Positions 17,698-40,089 of a DNA stretch of 40,089 bases are shown here, piece by piece. The notes below the pieces were generated by a model. It saw only the letters and a list, made by a program, of their open reading frames with translations. It searched no databases and had not been told where the DNA came from. The position numbers and the translations under genes are program-made. The stretch covers positions 1-40,089 of the forward strand of contig JAGBQR010000002.1 of NCBI GenBank assembly GCA_017632775.1, written 5' to 3'. This DNA is from Oscillospiraceae bacterium (GTDB lineage Bacteria; Bacillota; Clostridia; Oscillospirales; Oscillospiraceae). Numbering within the stretch: the stretch's first letter is position 1; each line of letters begins with the position of its first letter.

Positions 17698-18879
17698 TTA
17701 CCACTCCAGATTTTTGCTCGTCTCCTTGCTGAAGACATGCGCCACATTGCCGCTGAATGTGAAATTCACGACACTGCCCATTGCGAAGTGGGAAACAGCG
17801 CCTTCCGTCGGGACAATGATGATGACGTCTCTTCCCTCTGCAGTGACATGCAGGTGGATGGAGGAACCCATCATTTCCGAAACGTCGACCGTTGCGGGAA
17901 CGCCTTTGTCCGACAGGGAGAGGTGCTCCGGACGGACACCGACCGTGATATCCTGGCTCTGCACGTCGTTGCCCAGAAGTCTTGCTTCCTTCTCCGCGCT
18001 GAGCTCTACTTTTTCATCCGCCAGGCATACGAAGAACTTATCTCCTTCGCGGACCAGCTTTGCATCAAAGAAGTTCATCTGCGGAGTGCCGATGAAGCCG
18101 GCAACGAAGAGGTTGCGTGGATTGCTGAACACTTCCTGCGGAGTGCCGATCTGCTGGATGAATCCGTCGCGCATGATGACGATCCGGTCGCCGAGCGTCA
18201 TGGCTTCGGTCTGGTCATGGGTAACATAGATGAAGGTGGTATCGATCCGGTCGCGCAGCTTGATGATCTCCGCACGCATCTGGTTACGCAGTTTGGCGTC
18301 CAGGTTGGAGAGCGGTTCGTCCATCAGGAAGACCTTCGGGTCACGCACGATCGCACGGCCGATGGCGACACGCTGCCGCTGGCCGCCCGAAAGCGCTTTG
18401 GGCTTACGATCGAGATACTCGGTGATGTCGAGGATTTCCGCAGCCTGCTTGACCTTCTTGTCGATCTCATCCTTCGGCATCTTGCGAAGCTTCAGGGAAA
18501 ACGCCATGTTTTCATATACGGTCATATGCGGATAAAGCGCGTAGTTCTGGAAAACCATCGCGATATCACGGTCTTTCGGCGCGATATCGTTCACGCGTTT
18601 GCCGTCGATCAGAAGATCGCCTTCCGTGATCTCTTCAAGACCGGCGATCATACGCAGGGTGGTGGATTTTCCGCAGCCGGAAGGTCCGACCAGAACGATG
18701 AATTCCTTATCGGCGATATCCAGGCTGAACTGCTGAACCGCCACGACGCCCTGATCCGTGATCTGAAGGTTTACCTTCTTCTCCGGCTCGTCGTCTTTCT
18801 TTTTCTTCTTGGATTTCTTCTCTTCACCGCTGACGAATGGATAGATCTTCTTGATGTTTCTGAGTTCTACAGTTGCCAT
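17698..18879 (-). CDS. Stand-alone sugar ABC ATPase, MsmK/UgpC type, with charged insert
   Basis: A 393-residue ATPase with no permease gene beside it; such orphans can serve several CUT1 sugar importers. Walker A GPSGCGKST (residues 65-73), Q-loop FQNYALYPHMTVYEN, signature LSGGQRQRVAIGRA, Walker B VFLMDEPLSNLDAKL and H-loop YVTHDQTEA are intact, and a MalK-type C-terminal domain follows (VGVRPEHLSL). Residues 15-44 hold an insert absent from the paralogue at 4.9-6.0 kb: a Lys/Glu-rich tract (EEKKSKKKKKDDEPEKK) between the first two strands. The ATG at 18879 matches the family start but has only a poor SD. An in-frame ATG at 18909 is possible. Confidence 0.9.
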   Translation of the reverse strand: MATVELRNIKKIYPFVSGEEKKSKKKKKDDEPEKKVNLQITDQGVVAVQQFSLDIADKEFIVLVGPSGCGKSTTLRMIAGLEEITEGDLLIDGKRVNDIAPKDRDIAMVFQNYALYPHMTVYENMAFSLKLRKMPKDEIDKKVKQAAEILDITEYLDRKPKALSGGQRQRVAIGRAIVRDPKVFLMDEPLSNLDAKLRNQMRAEIIKLRDRIDTTFIYVTHDQTEAMTLGDRIVIMRDGFIQQIGTPQEVFSNPRNLFVAGFIGTPQMNFFDAKLVREGDKFFVCLADEKVELSAEKEARLLGNDVQSQDITVGVRPEHLSLSDKGVPATVDVSEMMGSSIHLHVTAEGRDVIIIVPTEGAVSHFAMGSVVNFTFSGNVAHVFSKETSKNLEW

Positions 18880-19097
18880 AGCATTGCTTTGGGCCCTGTG
18901 CCTCCGCATGCAGGGCTCTCACGGGGATCATTGATCCGCCGCATTACGGCACGTCTCCACTATGCCGCACCCCAAGCAGGGGTCCCGACTACTCCTCCTT
19001 TTTCAGCCCTTTACAGTCGTATGAGTCGGAGAACTGCAAAAAGCCGGTAATAATGTTTGGTTCTCAGAGGCCGCACTGATCGATCCTATGAAAACTT
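18880..19097 (-). promoter_or_regulatory. Long, hairpin-rich 5' leader of the MsmK-type gene
   Basis: About 218 bases separate the predicted transcription start from the ATG. On the minus strand a series of short hairpins follows: ACCCC/GGGGT, CGGCA/TGCCG, GGATCA/TGATCC and CCCTG/CAGGG. An AAAAAGGAGGAG sequence near 19000 is a perfect SD without a nearby start codon in a long frame. No known riboswitch or T-box core is recognised. The remaining part of the gene-free interval, 19134-19252, shows nothing. Confidence 0.35.
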
Positions 19098-26699: not shown

Positions 26700-26710
26700 T
26701 CTTTTTCCTG

Positions 26711-26756
26711 AAAAACGGCAGGAATGCGGCGTTTATGCCGCATTCCTGCCGTTTTT
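26711..26756. terminator. Bidirectional terminator, mainly of the oligopeptide ABC operon
   Basis: A perfect 20-bp stem (26711-26730 with 26737-26756) ending in five As and five Ts; it follows the last gene of the minus-strand operon by about 14 bases. Confidence 0.93.
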
Positions 26757-26769
26757 CAGTTGTCTTCCG

Positions 26770-27058: not shown

Positions 27059-28582
27059 TTACATCTCCGCTTCTTCCAGCATGTGGTGGCAGGCGACAAA
27101 ATGGTTCGGCCGTACCTCTTTCAGCTGGGGAATGATCTGTTTGCATTCTTCGGTGCAGTACTTGCATCTCGTATGGAACTTGCAGCCTTTCGGAGGATTG
27201 ACCGGACTTGGGATATCCCCCTCCAGAATCACCAGATCACGGTTGGCGTCCGGGTTCGTCGTAGGAATGGCGTTCAGCAGCGCTTCGGTATAGGGATGCA
27301 TCGGATGATCGAACAGTTCCTGTGAATCGGCAAGTTCCACGATGTTTCCCAGATACATGACACCGATACGGTCCGAGATATACTTGACGACCGAGAGGTC
27401 ATGGGTGATGAAGAGATAGGTATAGTTCTTCATCTCCTTCAGATCCTGCAGGAGGTTGATGATCTGGCTCTGGATGGAAACGTCCAGGGCGGACACCGCT
27501 TCGTCGCAGACAACGAATTTCGGCTCGGTGGAAAGCGCACGCGCGATCCCGATCCTCTGGCGCTGACCGCCGGAGAACTGATGCGGGTAGCGGTGGATGA
27601 AATACGGTGCAAGACCGCAGCTTTCCATGACCTCCAGGATCTTATCCTGTTTTCTGGGACTGCGTTTGGTGAAGTAGTTATGGGCGACCATTCCTTCACT
27701 GATGATCTGTCCTACCGTGAAGCGGGGATTCAGCGAGGAATAGGGGTCCTGGAAAATCAGCTGCAGGTCGCTTCTCAGATGGCGCATCTCATTGTAGGAG
27801 AGCCGCGCCAAGTCGATCCCGTCGTCGCGGAAAGCTTCCAGACGCTGAAACTCCTCATCGCCGGCATGCGCAGCGCGCAGCTCGTCCAGTCTGGCGTGAG
27901 CGGCATCCAGTCTGGCCTTATACTCTTCCAGTTCGCTGTTGAGCGTCTTCAGCTTATCTTCAGCCGCCTTCAGCTGCCGGTCACGGTTCTTCCCGTTTTC
28001 CTTGAGATACTTTTCGTCCTCCAGCTTTGACTCGGCCGGGATCTGTGCGTTGACCAGCCTGCTGTATTTCACGGAGAGATCATAGATCTCCGTAAGCACG
28101 GCTTTTGCCTCGGAGCAATCGGGAAGAGCATAAAAACCGCCGAATATGTTGGTGATATTCAGGAATGCCGCATCCGCGTCATGCTGCGCCTGCAGCATCT
28201 CCTCGTGGCGCTGTGCCCGCTGCTCATCGGAGGCTTTTTCAAATGCGGCCTCCGCGGAAGCCTTCTTTTCTTCCAGGCGTTTCACCTCGGCACGAAGCTT
28301 GTCGAAGTTCCGGATCGTATCCCTCACATATTTCGGCGCCACTTCATCCAGTGAGCGGCCGTAATACATGCTGCGTCCATCGGTCTGCTTATAGAGTTCG
28401 AGGATCGTACGTCCGAAGGTCGACTTTCCGCAGCCGGATTCACCGACCAGGCCGAGTGTCTCTCCTTCATAGATGTTGATGTCGATGCCGTCGTTGGCCT
28501 TGACATACATTCCCTTCTGTTTCAGAGGAAAGTACTGCTTCAGATTTGTGACCTTTAAAAGAACTTTTTTCTCTTCAGCCAT
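27059..28582 (-). CDS. Oligopeptide ABC ATPase, OppF/DppF type, with about 170-residue helical insert
   Basis: A 507-residue ATPase against about 320 in usual OppF/DppF. Walker A GESGCGKST is at 47-55. After SMYYGRSLDEVAP the protein has an insert of about 170 residues (82-255), mostly Glu/Lys/Ala-rich helix (RAEVKRLEEKKASAEAAF; AEDKLKTLNSELEEYKARL) around a short non-coil part (NIFGGFYALPDCSEAK). The normal sequence resumes at MRHLRSDLQLIFQDPYSSLN (Q-loop), then signature FSGGQRQRIGIARAL, Walker B FVVCDEAVSALDVS, and the OppF C-terminal zinc/iron-type cysteines (GCKFHTRCKYCTEEC). It overlaps oppD by eight bases. The insert would protrude from the nucleotide-binding domain. Confidence 0.9.
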   Translation of the reverse strand: MAEEKKVLLKVTNLKQYFPLKQKGMYVKANDGIDINIYEGETLGLVGESGCGKSTFGRTILELYKQTDGRSMYYGRSLDEVAPKYVRDTIRNFDKLRAEVKRLEEKKASAEAAFEKASDEQRAQRHEEMLQAQHDADAAFLNITNIFGGFYALPDCSEAKAVLTEIYDLSVKYSRLVNAQIPAESKLEDEKYLKENGKNRDRQLKAAEDKLKTLNSELEEYKARLDAAHARLDELRAAHAGDEEFQRLEAFRDDGIDLARLSYNEMRHLRSDLQLIFQDPYSSLNPRFTVGQIISEGMVAHNYFTKRSPRKQDKILEVMESCGLAPYFIHRYPHQFSGGQRQRIGIARALSTEPKFVVCDEAVSALDVSIQSQIINLLQDLKEMKNYTYLFITHDLSVVKYISDRIGVMYLGNIVELADSQELFDHPMHPYTEALLNAIPTTNPDANRDLVILEGDIPSPVNPPKGCKFHTRCKYCTEECKQIIPQLKEVRPNHFVACHHMLEEAEM

Positions 28583-29576
28583 GTTTCCGTTCCTCCTTGT
28601 TGGGATAGAAGCACCGGATCTCCTGATCGTCCGTGATCTTTGTCATAGGAGGCTCTTCTTCTCTGCACCGGTCTGTGGCATATTTGCACCGGGGAGCAAA
28701 CTTGCAGCCCTTCGGAAGATCCAGCGGATGCGGGACCGCGCCGGGAATGGCTTCGAGTCTTTCATTCGCCGGAGTATCCAGTCTCGGGATGGAAACAAGC
28801 AGGCCTTCTGTATAGGGATGGGAGTATTCAGATTTCGGATCGAAGATCACCCGGCAGGGAACGCGTTCCACTACCTGGCCGCAGTACATGACAGCAACAT
28901 AGTCTGCCATCTGATTGATAACGCCCAGGTCATGCGTAATGAACAGAATACTGGTCCCGCGTTCGCGCTTCAGATCATTCATAAGGCGAAGGATCTGCGC
29001 CTGGATCGTCACATCCAGAGCCGTGGTAGGCTCGTCTGCGATCAGCAGTTTCGGCTGACAGGCAAGCGCCATGGCTATCATGACACGCTGCCGCATACCG
29101 CCGGAGAGCTGGTGCGGATACTGTTTGGCCACGATCTGCGGATTCGGGATCTTGACCGAAGCGAGGATCTCTACAGACTTTTCCGCAGCCTGTTTCTTAT
29201 TCATTCCCTGGTGGACAATGAACACTTCCGAGAGCTGTTTTTCGATCGTGAACACCGGATTGAGACTGGTCATCGGTTCCTGGAATATTACAGAGATCTC
29301 GTTTCCGCGGATCTTATAGATATCCTCTTTGGAAACTTTCGTGAGATCCCGGCCGTTGAACCAGATCTCTCCGCTGTCGATATAGCCGTTTCCGTCCAGA
29401 AGGCGGAGGATACTCATCGCCGAAACGCTTTTCCCGGAGCCCGATTCACCCACGATGCCAAGAGTCTCCCCTTCCTTTACGGAATAGGAAGCATCGTTGA
29501 CCGCCTTGACGATACCGCGTTTGGTGGTGAAATAGGTATGGAGGTTTTTGACCTCAAGAAGATTTGTCTTTTCCAT
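28575..29576 (-). CDS. Oligopeptide ABC ATPase, OppD/DppD type
   Basis: A 333-residue ATPase with normal domain architecture: Walker [10 protein letters not shown]-loop [11 protein letters not shown], signature [15 protein letters not shown], Walker [18 protein letters not shown]-loop FITHDLGV and the cysteine-containing OppD/DppD C-terminus ([15 protein letters not shown]). Three ATGs occur in a row at 29582, 29579 and 29576; the third has the best spacing to AGGAG and is used. It is paired with the OppF-type protein as the asymmetric ATPase dimer of a peptide importer. It lies 12 bases after the permease gene. Confidence 0.93.
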
Positions 29577-29588
29577 CATCATCTCTCC

Positions 29589-31448
29589 TTATCTTCCGTT
29601 GGCTTTCGGATCGAGCGCATCACGCAGGCCGTCGCCGATAAGGTTGATGCAGATACAGGTGATTCCGAAAATAGCACCGACAAACACCCAGTTCCACCAG
29701 TAGCTCTGAATAATCAGACTGTTGTTTGCGCCGGTAAGCATATTGCCCCAGGTCGGTGTCGGCAGAGGAACGCCGAAACCGAGGTAGGAAAGCGTGGACT
29801 CGGTGAGCATGGAAGTACCGAACGCGAGTGTGATGGTGACCAGGCAGACAGACATGACGTTCGGGATGATCTGGGAGAAAATGATCTTTCCTTCCTTGAC
29901 GCCGAGGGTCTTCGCCGCCACAACATACTCCATCTCGCGCTGGGCAAACATCTGGGCGCGTACCAGCCGGCAGATGCCCGGCCAGGAAAGGATACCCAGG
30001 ATGACCATGATGATGTACATTCTCTGTTCAATGGTAACTCTCGTGCCGAGAACAGCCGAGAGGATCATGCAGAACGGGATGAACGGCATGGAAGAGATGA
30101 CCTCCGCCAGACGCATGATCACCATGTCGACTACCCCGCCGAAGTATCCTGCGATGCCTCCGAGGATAACGCCGATGATGGTTTCGATGATCACCGCGAC
30201 CGCGCCGATCGTCATCGTCATCTTACCGCCGTTGACAAGACGTGCAAACACATCCCGTCCGAGCGTGTCCGTGCCGAGGATGAAGCCCTTGAGTCCCCAG
30301 TTGTGCAGGTGTCCGTCTTCATCGACCGCATAGTTTTGGAAGGATCCGGAATGGATCTTCACGATATGAGCATTCTGAGCTTCTTCCGGTACATCGCACT
30401 GGTTATAGCGATTGCTTCCCCAGGCAACGATCTCGCCGTTCTCCAGCCGGGCGCAGTAGTGATAACGCCCGCCCTCAATCTCGACCGCTGGAGCACTGAA
30501 TGCTGGCACCAGGTTTTCGCCCTTGGTGGTCGCGCCCCAGACGATGACGCTGCCGTCTTCCATCAGAGCCGCCACACTGTTCGTGCTTCCCGCGATGGAA
30601 ATCACGCCGCTCTGCGCAGCTTCAGGAACCTTCTGGACCGTTGACGAGGACGTGTATGCCGGGTTGACCACGGAGCCGTCATCCAGCAGGACCATGAATG
30701 CGTTCATGGTCAGTGCCACCTGCTTCACATGCTTCTGGACCTGGGTGCGGACATCCAGATCAACGAAATTCGTGTTGCCCCAGAGAAACAGCTGACCGTC
30801 CGCCGTGAGTGCCGCAGAGAACTGGTTGGACGCCTGGATATCGATGATCTCCATCCTGTGGCGCTTGTTGTTGGTCTGCAGTTCAAACGGCAGATCCAGC
30901 TGTCCGAGACGTTTGTTTCCCCAGCAGTAGATCGTTCCTTCCTCATCGAGAGCAACAGCATGGTCGGAACCGGCTGCCACACGCACGACATGCGCGGCCT
31001 GCACTTCTTCCGGGACATCCTTGAGATCGATGATCTTGGTAACTTTGCTCTTCCCCCAGACATAGACCTTTCCGAGGGTATCCACACCGATGGAGTAGTT
31101 CGGACCGACGGAGATATCGACCACGCCGTTCTCTTCCAGTTCCTTCGGATATTTCATCATGTCATACCCCGGAGCCAGGCTGGTGAGCGTACTGTCCTGC
31201 TCGCCGAGATCAAGCGTGACAAAGCTTGGAGCGATAAAAACGAAAAGTGCAATAATGATAAACAGGATGAGCGCGACCACCGCGATCGGCTGGGAGAAAT
31301 AGTTTTTCAGCACGACCCGGAACGGGCTCTGCAGCTGCTCCTCCGTATAGATGTCCAGTTCCTTGTTGGGGAAGAAGGCTCTGCGAATCCAGCGCCAGAG
31401 GAAGAATTCCTTCTTCTTGGAAGCATTCGTATTCTTTTCTTTACTCAT
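29589..31448 (-). CDS. Oligopeptide ABC permease, OppC/DppC type, with inserted RCC1-like beta-propeller
   Basis: A 619-residue permease, twice the usual 280-310. Residues 1-50 are cytoplasmic, 55-78 the first membrane helix, and 108-388 an insert of about 280 residues. It resolves into seven blades of about 40 residues, each with the RCC1 pattern (A-x-D-x-x-G-x-(I/V/L)-x-x-WG), for example ALDEEGTIYCWGN, ALTADGQLFLWGN, ALMEDGSVIVWGA and RLENGEIVAWGSN. The normal sequence resumes at LGTDTLGRDVFARLVNGGKM (391-410), then five helices and the coupling loop (VAAKTLGVKEGKIIFSQIIP). The insert is therefore outside the cell. Of two adjacent ATGs, the one at 31448 is seven bases from GGAGG; an upstream frame to 31481 is rejected. 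Confidence 0.92.
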   Translation of the reverse strand: MSKEKNTNASKKKEFFLWRWIRRAFFPNKELDIYTEEQLQSPFRVVLKNYFSQPIAVVALILFIIIALFVFIAPSFVTLDLGEQDSTLTSLAPGYDMMKYPKELEENGVVDISVGPNYSIGVDTLGKVYVWGKSKVTKIIDLKDVPEEVQAAHVVRVAAGSDHAVALDEEGTIYCWGNKRLGQLDLPFELQTNNKRHRMEIIDIQASNQFSAALTADGQLFLWGNTNFVDLDVRTQVQKHVKQVALTMNAFMVLLDDGSVVNPAYTSSSTVQKVPEAAQSGVISIAGSTNSVAALMEDGSVIVWGATTKGENLVPAFSAPAVEIEGGRYHYCARLENGEIVAWGSNRYNQCDVPEEAQNAHIVKIHSGSFQNYAVDEDGHLHNWGLKGFILGTDTLGRDVFARLVNGGKMTMTIGAVAVIIETIIGVILGGIAGYFGGVVDMVIMRLAEVISSMPFIPFCMILSAVLGTRVTIEQRMYIIMVILGILSWPGICRLVRAQMFAQREMEYVVAAKTLGVKEGKIIFSQIIPNVMSVCLVTITLAFGTSMLTESTLSYLGFGVPLPTPTWGNMLTGANNSLIIQSYWWNWVFVGAIFGITCICINLIGDGLRDALDPKANGR

Positions 31449-31461
31449 CATTATGCCTCCT

Positions 31462-32481
31462 TTACTTATCGATCCGGACACGCGGGTCGACCAGCGTGTA
31501 ACTCAGGTCCGTAAGCAGGACACCCACAAGGCTGACCAGTGTATAGAACATCTGCATTGCAAGAACGAGCTCATAGTCCGTGGTGTTCAGTCCGCTCCAG
31601 TACAGGCGTCCCGTACCGTTCAGCGAGAAGGTGTTCTCAATGACGAGTGATCCGCCTGTGAACACACTGATCATCCAGCCCATGATCGAGGTGGAAACCG
31701 GGAGCAGCGCGTTCCGCCAGGCGTGGCTGTAAATGACGACCTTTTCGCGAAGACCTTTGGCACGGGCCGTGCGGATATAGTCCTGCGAAAGCGTGTCCAT
31801 CATGGCTGCGCGGACTGTTCTCGTCATACCGGCAAGACCTGCGAAAACGAGGACCAGCACCGGGAGAGCCAGATAGTACATTCGGTCGAGAAACTCCCTT
31901 GTACCGGTGTATGTAGAGCCCGGTGTCTTGGCGCCTCCCGTTGGAAACCATCGCAGGAGTACGGCGAATACATAGATGAACAGGATACTGATCAGGAAGA
32001 TGGGAAGACTGTATCCCACAACGGTTGCCGCCTGGATGGCGCTGTCCCCCGCGGAACGGGCATGGACCGCGCAGTAGATGCCCAAAGGGATCGTAATGGC
32101 CAGCGTGAGGATCGTGGAAACAAAATTCAATATGATCGTGTTTTGCATCGGTGTTCCGATGATATCCACGACCGGCCGTTTGTAGCTGACCGAGTAACCG
32201 AAGTTGCCCTGCAGCAGGCCGCTGAACGTTCCGTCCACATCCCGCATGAAGCCCATCCATCGGGCATAGCGGATCAGCAGCGGCTGATCGAGGCCGAGTT
32301 GGCTGCGCAGTTCGAGATACTGCCTCGTCCACTCATCAGGCTTCAGTGTTTTCCGCAGCGGCTCCATCTGCACAAGGGCCGGATCGCTGGGAATGAGGTT
32401 GTAGATCGAATACATCATCAGCGAGACTACAAAGAACACAATGATGAGGTACAGGATCCTCTTCAGAAGATATTTTTTCAA
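31462..32481 (-). CDS. Oligopeptide ABC permease, OppB/DppB type, TTG start
   Basis: A 339-residue permease with six predicted helices. It has the OppB N-terminus (LLKRILYLIIVFFVVSLMMY, then NLIPSDPA), the large first extracellular loop and the coupling loop YIRTARAKGLREKVVIYSHA. The start is TTG at 32481, with GGAGGT nine bases upstream. An ATG closer to the SD is out of frame and encodes only Met-Val before a TGA that overlaps the TTG. It is co-transcribed with the OppC-type gene; 13 bases separate them. Confidence 0.92.
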   Translation of the reverse strand: MKKYLLKRILYLIIVFFVVSLMMYSIYNLIPSDPALVQMEPLRKTLKPDEWTRQYLELRSQLGLDQPLLIRYARWMGFMRDVDGTFSGLLQGNFGYSVSYKRPVVDIIGTPMQNTIILNFVSTILTLAITIPLGIYCAVHARSAGDSAIQAATVVGYSLPIFLISILFIYVFAVLLRWFPTGGAKTPGSTYTGTREFLDRMYYLALPVLVLVFAGLAGMTRTVRAAMMDTLSQDYIRTARAKGLREKVVIYSHAWRNALLPVSTSIMGWMISVFTGGSLVIENTFSLNGTGRLYWSGLNTTDYELVLAMQMFYTLVSLVGVLLTDLSYTLVDPRVRIDK

Positions 32482-34857: not shown

Positions 34858-34886
34858 ATTATAGCATCACGAAAATGCTATTGCAA
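34858..34886 (-). promoter_or_regulatory. Promoter of the oligopeptide ABC operon
   Basis: TTGCAA (34881-34886), 17 bases and TATAAT (34858-34863) on the minus strand, with a 5' leader of about 142 bases. The gene-free interval 34710-34986 also holds the cre-like site and the ispE terminator. Confidence 0.7.
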
Positions 34887-39691: not shown

Positions 39692-39765
39692 GCAGGTGTA
39701 GTTCAATGGTAGAACACCAGCCTTCCAAGCTGGATACGTGGGTTCGATTCCCATCACCTGCTCCA
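39692..39765 (+). tRNA. tRNA-Gly (TCC)
   Basis: A complete cloverleaf: acceptor GCAGGTG/CACCTGC, anticodon stem CCAGC/GCTGG with loop CTTCCAA (anticodon TCC), T-arm GTGGG/CCCAT with TTCGATT, discriminator T and an encoded CCA at 39763-39765. It is the first tRNA of the cluster. Confidence 0.95.
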
Positions 39766-39788
39766 ACCTTCCCTTGCAAGGCAGATAT

Positions 39789-39865
39789 GCGCCAATAGCT
39801 CAGCAGGATAGAGCAACTGCCTTCTAAGCAGTAGGTCAGGGGTTCGAATCCCTTTTGGCGTGCCA
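39789..39865 (+). tRNA. tRNA-Arg (TCT)
   Basis: Acceptor GCGCCAA pairs with TTGGCGT (first pair G-U), anticodon loop CTTCTAA gives TCT, T-loop is TTCGAAT, discriminator G and encoded CCA at 39863-39865. Confidence 0.95.
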
Positions 39866-39870
39866 AGCGT

Positions 39871-39912
39871 TATGCCAGGAGGATTCCGTTTCGAATTCCT
39901 CTTGGCATACGA
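39871..39912 (+). repeat. Inverted repeat containing a degenerate copy of the tRNA-Arg 3' end
   Basis: Positions 39889-39912 match the T-arm and acceptor 3' half of the preceding tRNA-Arg (39842-39865) at 18 of 24 bases. The same segment pairs with 39871-39886 (TATGCCAGGAGGATTC) to form a hairpin with a few mismatches. Confidence 0.5.
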
Positions 39913-39933
39913 AAAACCTCAGCGGTTCATAAT

Positions 39934-40010
39934 GGTGGGATTAGCTCAGTTGGTAGAGCACCGGATTGTGGTTCCGGGTGTCGTGGGTTCGAGCCCCATA
40001 TCCCACCCCA
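39934..40010 (+). tRNA. tRNA-His (GTG)
   Basis: Acceptor GTGGGAT/ATCCCAC with the extra 5' G (-1) at 39934 opposite discriminator C, anticodon loop TTGTGGT (GTG), T-loop TTCGAGC and encoded CCA at 40008-40010. Confidence 0.95.
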
Positions 40011-40045
40011 CTTTTTTCCGTTGAGGCATCTGCCGGATCCTATAT

Positions 40046-40089
40046 TGGGATGTAGTGTAATGGTAACACACCGGACTTTGACTCCGATA
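40046..40089 (+). tRNA. tRNA-Gln (TTG), partial at the right edge
   Basis: The 5' half matches tRNA-Gln: TGGGATGTAGTGTAATGG, D-arm and anticodon arm CCGGA-CTTTGAC-TCCG with anticodon TTG. The 3' half is beyond the window. Confidence 0.9.

Follow-up and report, generated by a model that had tools for sequence, protein, structure and literature searches.

The analysed window is a stretch of 40,089 nucleotides from the genome of an Oscillospiraceae bacterium (contig JAGBQR010000002.1). It carries on its reverse strand a five-gene operon in the order oppA-oppB-oppC-oppD-oppF. Judging by its domains and operon, the third gene encodes OppC, a subunit of an Opp-type ABC importer whose substrates are presumed from the family alone to be peptides. 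The operon comprises the following features:

26710..26757, palindromic, reported on the + strand: 20-pair stem-loop after oppF, possible operon terminator
27059..28582, - strand: oppF ATPase, 507 aa, with a long Walker A to Q-loop segment
27824..28357, - strand: extra oppF segment, approximately residues 76-253 (boundaries drawn by eye against the short OppF of locus L145)
28575..29582, - strand: oppD ATPase, 335 aa
29589..31448, - strand: permease gene of oppC type carrying the RCC1 insert; 619 aa when started at the ATG at 31448 (open reading frame and Pfam)
29601..30173, - strand: BPD_transp_1 permease core, residues 426-616 (Pfam, 2.6e-30)
30252..30278, - strand: LGTDTLGRD motif, residues 391-399, where permease sequence resumes (sequence and alignment)
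30291..31169, - strand: predicted seven-bladed RCC1/BLIP-II-type propeller, residues 94-386 (profiles, predicted model and fold comparison)
31170..31328, - strand: OppC_N domain, residues 41-93 (Pfam PF12911, 7.3e-08)
within OppC_N, - strand: TM1, approximately residues 54-76 (helix 54-76 in the predicted model)
31481, - strand: alternative in-frame GTG start of the oppC-type gene, giving 630 aa and overlapping the end of oppB
31462..32481, - strand: oppB permease, 339 aa
32673..34709, - strand: oppA-type binding protein, 678 aa (SBP_bac_5; ALCAC lipobox-like N-terminus by eye)
34858..34886, - strand: promoter-like site upstream of oppA (10/12 match, with a TG preceding the second hexamer; shuffled sequence yields such sites at least as often)

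Residue numbering throughout refers to the 619-aa form.

The operon and its relatives

The gene order oppA-B-C-D-F is complete in 37 of the 40 propeller-bearing loci compared (the window, L036-L049 and L142-L166), and the other three (L041, L047 and L049) are truncated where the locus ends. When scored against the window OppA, the OppA proteins of the propeller operons reach 144-1568, versus at most 77 in 15 comparison operons, nine of which have no score above 40. The immediate neighbors outside the operon differ among five divergent loci, and no partner gene recurs beside the operon in the five loci examined; a peptidase M3 gene adjoins it only in L164. No regulatory RNA that would hint at the substrate was found at the operon within the window; a T-box was seen in one of the six loci searched (L164), beyond the operon. 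Additional genes were observed in two operons: a second oppA within the operon of L159 and an ATPase-like gene after oppF in L152. The genome of the window also encodes a standard Opp operon (L181), in which OppC has 307 aa and OppF is short. Elsewhere in the window, a malK-I RNA motif (18874-19049, - strand; Rfam RF03069, 108.1 bits) lies just upstream of an ATPase-like ORF (17698-18909), and four tRNA matches are clustered at 39692-40089 (+ strand), the last one being cut by the window end.

The OppF subunit of the window has 223 residues between its Walker A motif and Q-loop, versus about 43 in an ordinary OppF. Among the 38 propeller operons with a readable OppF, this spacing is 186-245 in 36 and 47 in two close relatives (L145 and L146); in all 15 comparison operons it is 43 or 44. 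The extra segment is charged and helical-looking. Since the propeller and the OppF insert both mark this one clade, finding them together does not in itself argue for cooperation.

The predicted propeller of OppC

Pfam profiles run against the 619-aa form recovered both the permease domains and the RCC1 repeats, each above its cut-off: OppC_N (32.6 bits, cut-off 23.9), BPD_transp_1 (105.9 bits, cut-off 26.4), RCC1_2 in five stretches (5.4e-35, 118.7 bits, cut-off 22), and RCC1 (1.5e-07, 32.3 bits, cut-off 21.7). The whole-domain model PF25390 WD40_RLD, which describes longer blades than those found here, was missed at 133.8 bits versus a cut-off of 150, and two other propeller members scored 110.8 and 124.1; the RCC1 repeat models are passed. 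In a phmmer search, residues 388-615 matched the OppC chain 8z21_B (9.4e-47). The best NCBIfam model is Opp4C (3.4e-86), its 289 bits being below the equivalog cut-off of 350, and every listed NCBIfam equivalog for OppC, DppC or NikC scores the window permease under its own cut-off.

A single-chain structure prediction contains seven strand triplets, starting at residues 109, 154, 201, 241, 282, 321 and 362, the fourth of which has two strands assigned. The pLDDT is 76-95 per ten-residue block from residue 101 to 380 and about 90 in the strand triplets, and the predicted propeller superposes on BLIP-II over 255 residues. Thus, by repeat profiles and fold, the seven predicted blades would close a ring that belongs to the RCC1/BLIP-II propeller group. 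The remainder of the model is poor (mean pLDDT 67.4 and pTM 0.57 overall, with most of the membrane part below 65), and therefore it is sequence homology, not the model, that places the propeller within the membrane protein. The first-pass annotation had described a seven-unit RCC1 propeller in an OppC/DppC-type permease, inserted between TM1 and the LGTDxxGRD motif. Profiles, predicted model, fold comparison and the conservation across the order and further afield all bear this out; the motif at residues 391-399 directly follows the propeller. Its range of residues 108-388 agrees with the 619-aa numbering; the propeller extends slightly beyond it, over about 94-386. Most units were said to end in WG, and six of the seven do (at residues 131, 176, 223, 304, 343 and 384), blade 4 being the exception.

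An assembly artefact or a chance repeat is ruled out by the occurrence of the same fusion in 54 distinct genomes and by the profile E-value given above. Recent blade amplification was rejected as well, the insert being without long DNA-level repeats (the longest is 36 nt at 78%). Foreign composition is likewise rejected, the GC content of the insert (0.51-0.59) being inside the operon range (0.50-0.60).

Conservation is lower in the propeller than in the permease (0.49 vs 0.71), and lowest in the linkers of the propeller. Conserved polar residues (D162, H163, Q209, H330, Q371, N372 and Y373) are found on the strand 1-2 turns and on strand 2 of blades 2, 3, 6 and 7. With G, W and P excluded, the mean conservation of the strand 1-2 turns is 0.42 versus 0.40 for the opposite turns; as a class the former are thus not the better conserved, and no face can be singled out for binding.

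Distribution and single origin of the propeller

Using the window protein as query, we searched four overlapping genome samples with one genome per species. Matches extending over the insert occurred at the family level in 15 of 200 genomes (counting the window's own), at the order level in 23 of 295, at the class level in 13 of 291 and at the phylum level in 9 of 299; a few are truncated at contig ends (e.g., G185, G390, G361 and G242). The union of the samples contains the 54 distinct genomes from 18 families, seven of these genomes being outside the class. A contig scan revealed 15 further loci with 60-83% identity, which may include species already counted; their sources are metagenome-assembled genomes, titled for the most part as gut Clostridia/Oscillospiraceae of goat, buffalo, roe deer or other origin. 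Among plasmids, 518 records contain OppC relatives at E 1e-40, none of which has one place covering 80% of the query. Five phage records encode RCC1-like proteins with 22-25% identity and no permease seen under the matches; four of the five carry the annotation RCC1/BNR or hypothetical.

The comparison covered 108 open frames, duplicates included, that contain a permease core of the OppC kind. A propeller profile picks out 68 of them (scores 114.6-508.2) and gives no match in the other 40, and the permease scores of the two groups likewise do not overlap. In permease-core trees, the 65 distinct propeller rows fall on one side of a single branch, supported at 99/99 when the two paralogues of the window genome are included and at 100/100 without them. 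Propeller loss was not seen among the 68 frames; the trees cover the sampled loci, and lower-scoring permease-only matches lie outside this set, which leaves room for loss in a fast-evolving member there. Repeated convergent gain was considered and rejected, the sampled tree needing one change. Within the sample, the propeller thus has a single origin and has been retained in its clade. Propeller importers make up a widespread Opp branch without a name, which the annotation models now in use do not set apart.

The same loop is occupied differently in other clades. Among the 40 propeller-free frames are 20 distinct sister OppC proteins with large regions of another kind ahead of the core (frames of 458-737 aa; loci L021-L035 and L118-L122); the remainder have short loops. 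Four of the large ones were scanned with Pfam (L167, L169, L171 and L172), which assigns no domain between OppC_N and the core. The TM1-TM2 loop is thus a site of extra domains in this permease group. The unnamed regions may resemble the extracellular domains of AmiC, the OppC-like subunit of the pneumococcal Ami oligopeptide importer.

RCC1 repeats were also observed in other proteins. The window genome encodes a second RCC1 protein (L004, a 491-aa frame on G000:C40) with an N-terminal hydrophobic segment and, by eye, no permease domain. In the same family, RCC1 repeats occur in giant frames of 40694 aa (G077:C3, L053), 32325 aa (G160:C1, L054), 30029 and 8036 aa (G014:C1, L055), 18501 and 13329 aa (G116:C2, L051) and 7968 aa (G152:C9, L060); to our knowledge such lengths, if real, would be among the longest of bacterial genes.

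Possible functions and comparison with known systems

In OppC proteins, the TM1-TM2 loop is extracellular and adjoins the place where the binding protein docks, and the RCC1-type propeller is a fold often employed for gripping other proteins. From the known OppC topology, the window propeller would be located outside, and its fold, together with the example of BLIP-II, suggests that it may bind a protein. We propose, with a probability of about 0.5, that the propeller serves as a docking and gating platform for the operon's own binding lipoprotein OppA: (i) the propeller would form a rigid outer platform on OppC, (ii) this platform would bind the OppA of its own operon in the closed, loaded form, and (iii) the bound OppA would be set over the OppB/OppC gate, which would aid the hand-over of cargo. 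The scheme is modelled, with another fold, on the role proposed for AmiC, in which residues 31-278 are described as two extracellular domains that contact or clamp the binding protein in AlphaFold-Multimer models (PMC11192437). This analogy and a weak co-divergence signal would make OppA the probable partner.

Co-divergence was assessed by rank partial correlations of pairwise distances over 33 operons, the remaining subunits being controlled for in each case. The propeller correlates best with OppA (0.40, jackknife 0.33-0.44), followed by the OppF core (0.22), OppB (0.15), the OppF insert (-0.03), the permease core (-0.07) and OppD (-0.24). The OppF core value reflects the noise level, since this core cannot touch the propeller, and OppA correlates with the permease core (0.38) nearly as well as with the propeller. 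Two fast extracellular domains may also share rates for other reasons. The pattern is thus a hint at OppA as the partner that is suggestive only. Of the contacts suggested in the first-pass annotation (binding lipoprotein, cell wall or a partner), it speaks weakly for the first. Loop length and OppA length are weakly related (rho 0.32, p 0.046, without correction for kinship and with some lengths mis-measured), and this relation was given no weight. Because the co-divergence is of this kind and no turn class is better conserved, we hold the docking-platform reading at moderate confidence.

The propeller might instead bind a target other than OppA, such as peptidoglycan, a surface polymer, a secreted protease or another surface protein, and hold the importer near a source of peptides. 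Propellers of the RCC1/BLIP-II type do bind proteins (as described in PMC9218822), and RCC1 repeats are reported as frequent in cell-surface proteins of gut bacteria such as bee bifidobacteria (PMC4449606) and also occur in proteins that are predicted to lie at the surface and are encoded in genomes of the same family. However, a single orthologous clade keeps the propeller over 18 families with possibly very different habitats, its divergence follows OppA best, and the five loci examined share no partner gene beside the operon; such a tether therefore seems somewhat unlikely. It is also conceivable, and in our judgement rather unlikely, that an ancient Opp branch was rebuilt on both membrane sides, by the outer OppC propeller and an OppF insert of about 140-200 residues. 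The importer would then double as a receptor or anchored complex, with the propeller recognizing a dedicated protein partner and the OppF insert reporting or anchoring in the cytoplasm; the OppF insert and the propeller do not diverge in step.

Capture of peptides or a larger ligand by the propeller itself, for passage to OppA or to the gate, is quite improbable. A folded domain of 290 residues beside the importer gate, with the conserved polar residues on four of its blades, would suit such a role, but histidine and similar residues at those places are common in RCC1 repeats at large, and a second capture domain is not required, because each complete operon (37 of 40 loci) retains its own OppA. 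The least probable of the readings considered is a spacer or shield, for example against proteases, which binds nothing specifically and became fixed in one clade. The lower conservation of the propeller, especially of its linkers, agrees with it, as do the unrelated and very differently sized inserts of other clades in the same loop; yet a mere spacer would be expected to show occasional loss or replacement, whereas among the 68 frames no loss is seen and the blade-forming residues are kept throughout.

The first-pass annotation knew of no RCC1 domain inserted in an import permease. This stands insofar as no NCBIfam equivalog covers the protein and no description of an RCC1 insert or propeller in a permease was found in the open-access literature; the RCC1 content in the relevant portions of PMC5359404, PMC10710014, PMC2394750 and PMC6429367 is unrelated to any permease insert. 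A large extracellular TM1-TM2 region as such has a precedent in AmiC, an OppC-like subunit of the Opp type that shares with the window OppC (region 94-386) a large region between TM1 and TM2; its published description, by which we compare it, speaks of two extracellular domains and, in its account of them, mentions no propeller (PMC11192437). As far as seen in the open-access literature, we are thus dealing with a known importer and a known strategy of loop domains, with a propeller there that was apparently not described before.

The recognition and opening of the binding protein at ABC importers is an old question, and a clean, removable and well-folded module, long kept by one clade, offers a direct route to testing binding-protein recognition. 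It also places a bacterial RCC1 propeller in a well-defined functional context, whereas most of them sit in surface proteins without an assigned role, and defines a subfamily of gut Opp importers that is worthy of a name.

Compared with E. coli OppC and DppC and with the NCBIfam Opp4C family, the window protein has the permease core in common; those proteins have a short TM1-TM2 loop and 300-302 aa overall, and the window protein scores under the Opp4C cut-off. Eukaryotic RCC1, UVR8 and the RCC1-like domains of HERC2 have longer blades, about 18-26% identity over the fold, and stand-alone or signalling contexts. The Streptomyces beta-lactamase inhibitory protein II (BLIP-II) belongs to the same RCC1/BLIPII propeller group; it is a free secreted binder of class A beta-lactamases, whereas the predicted propeller of the window is located inside a permease loop.
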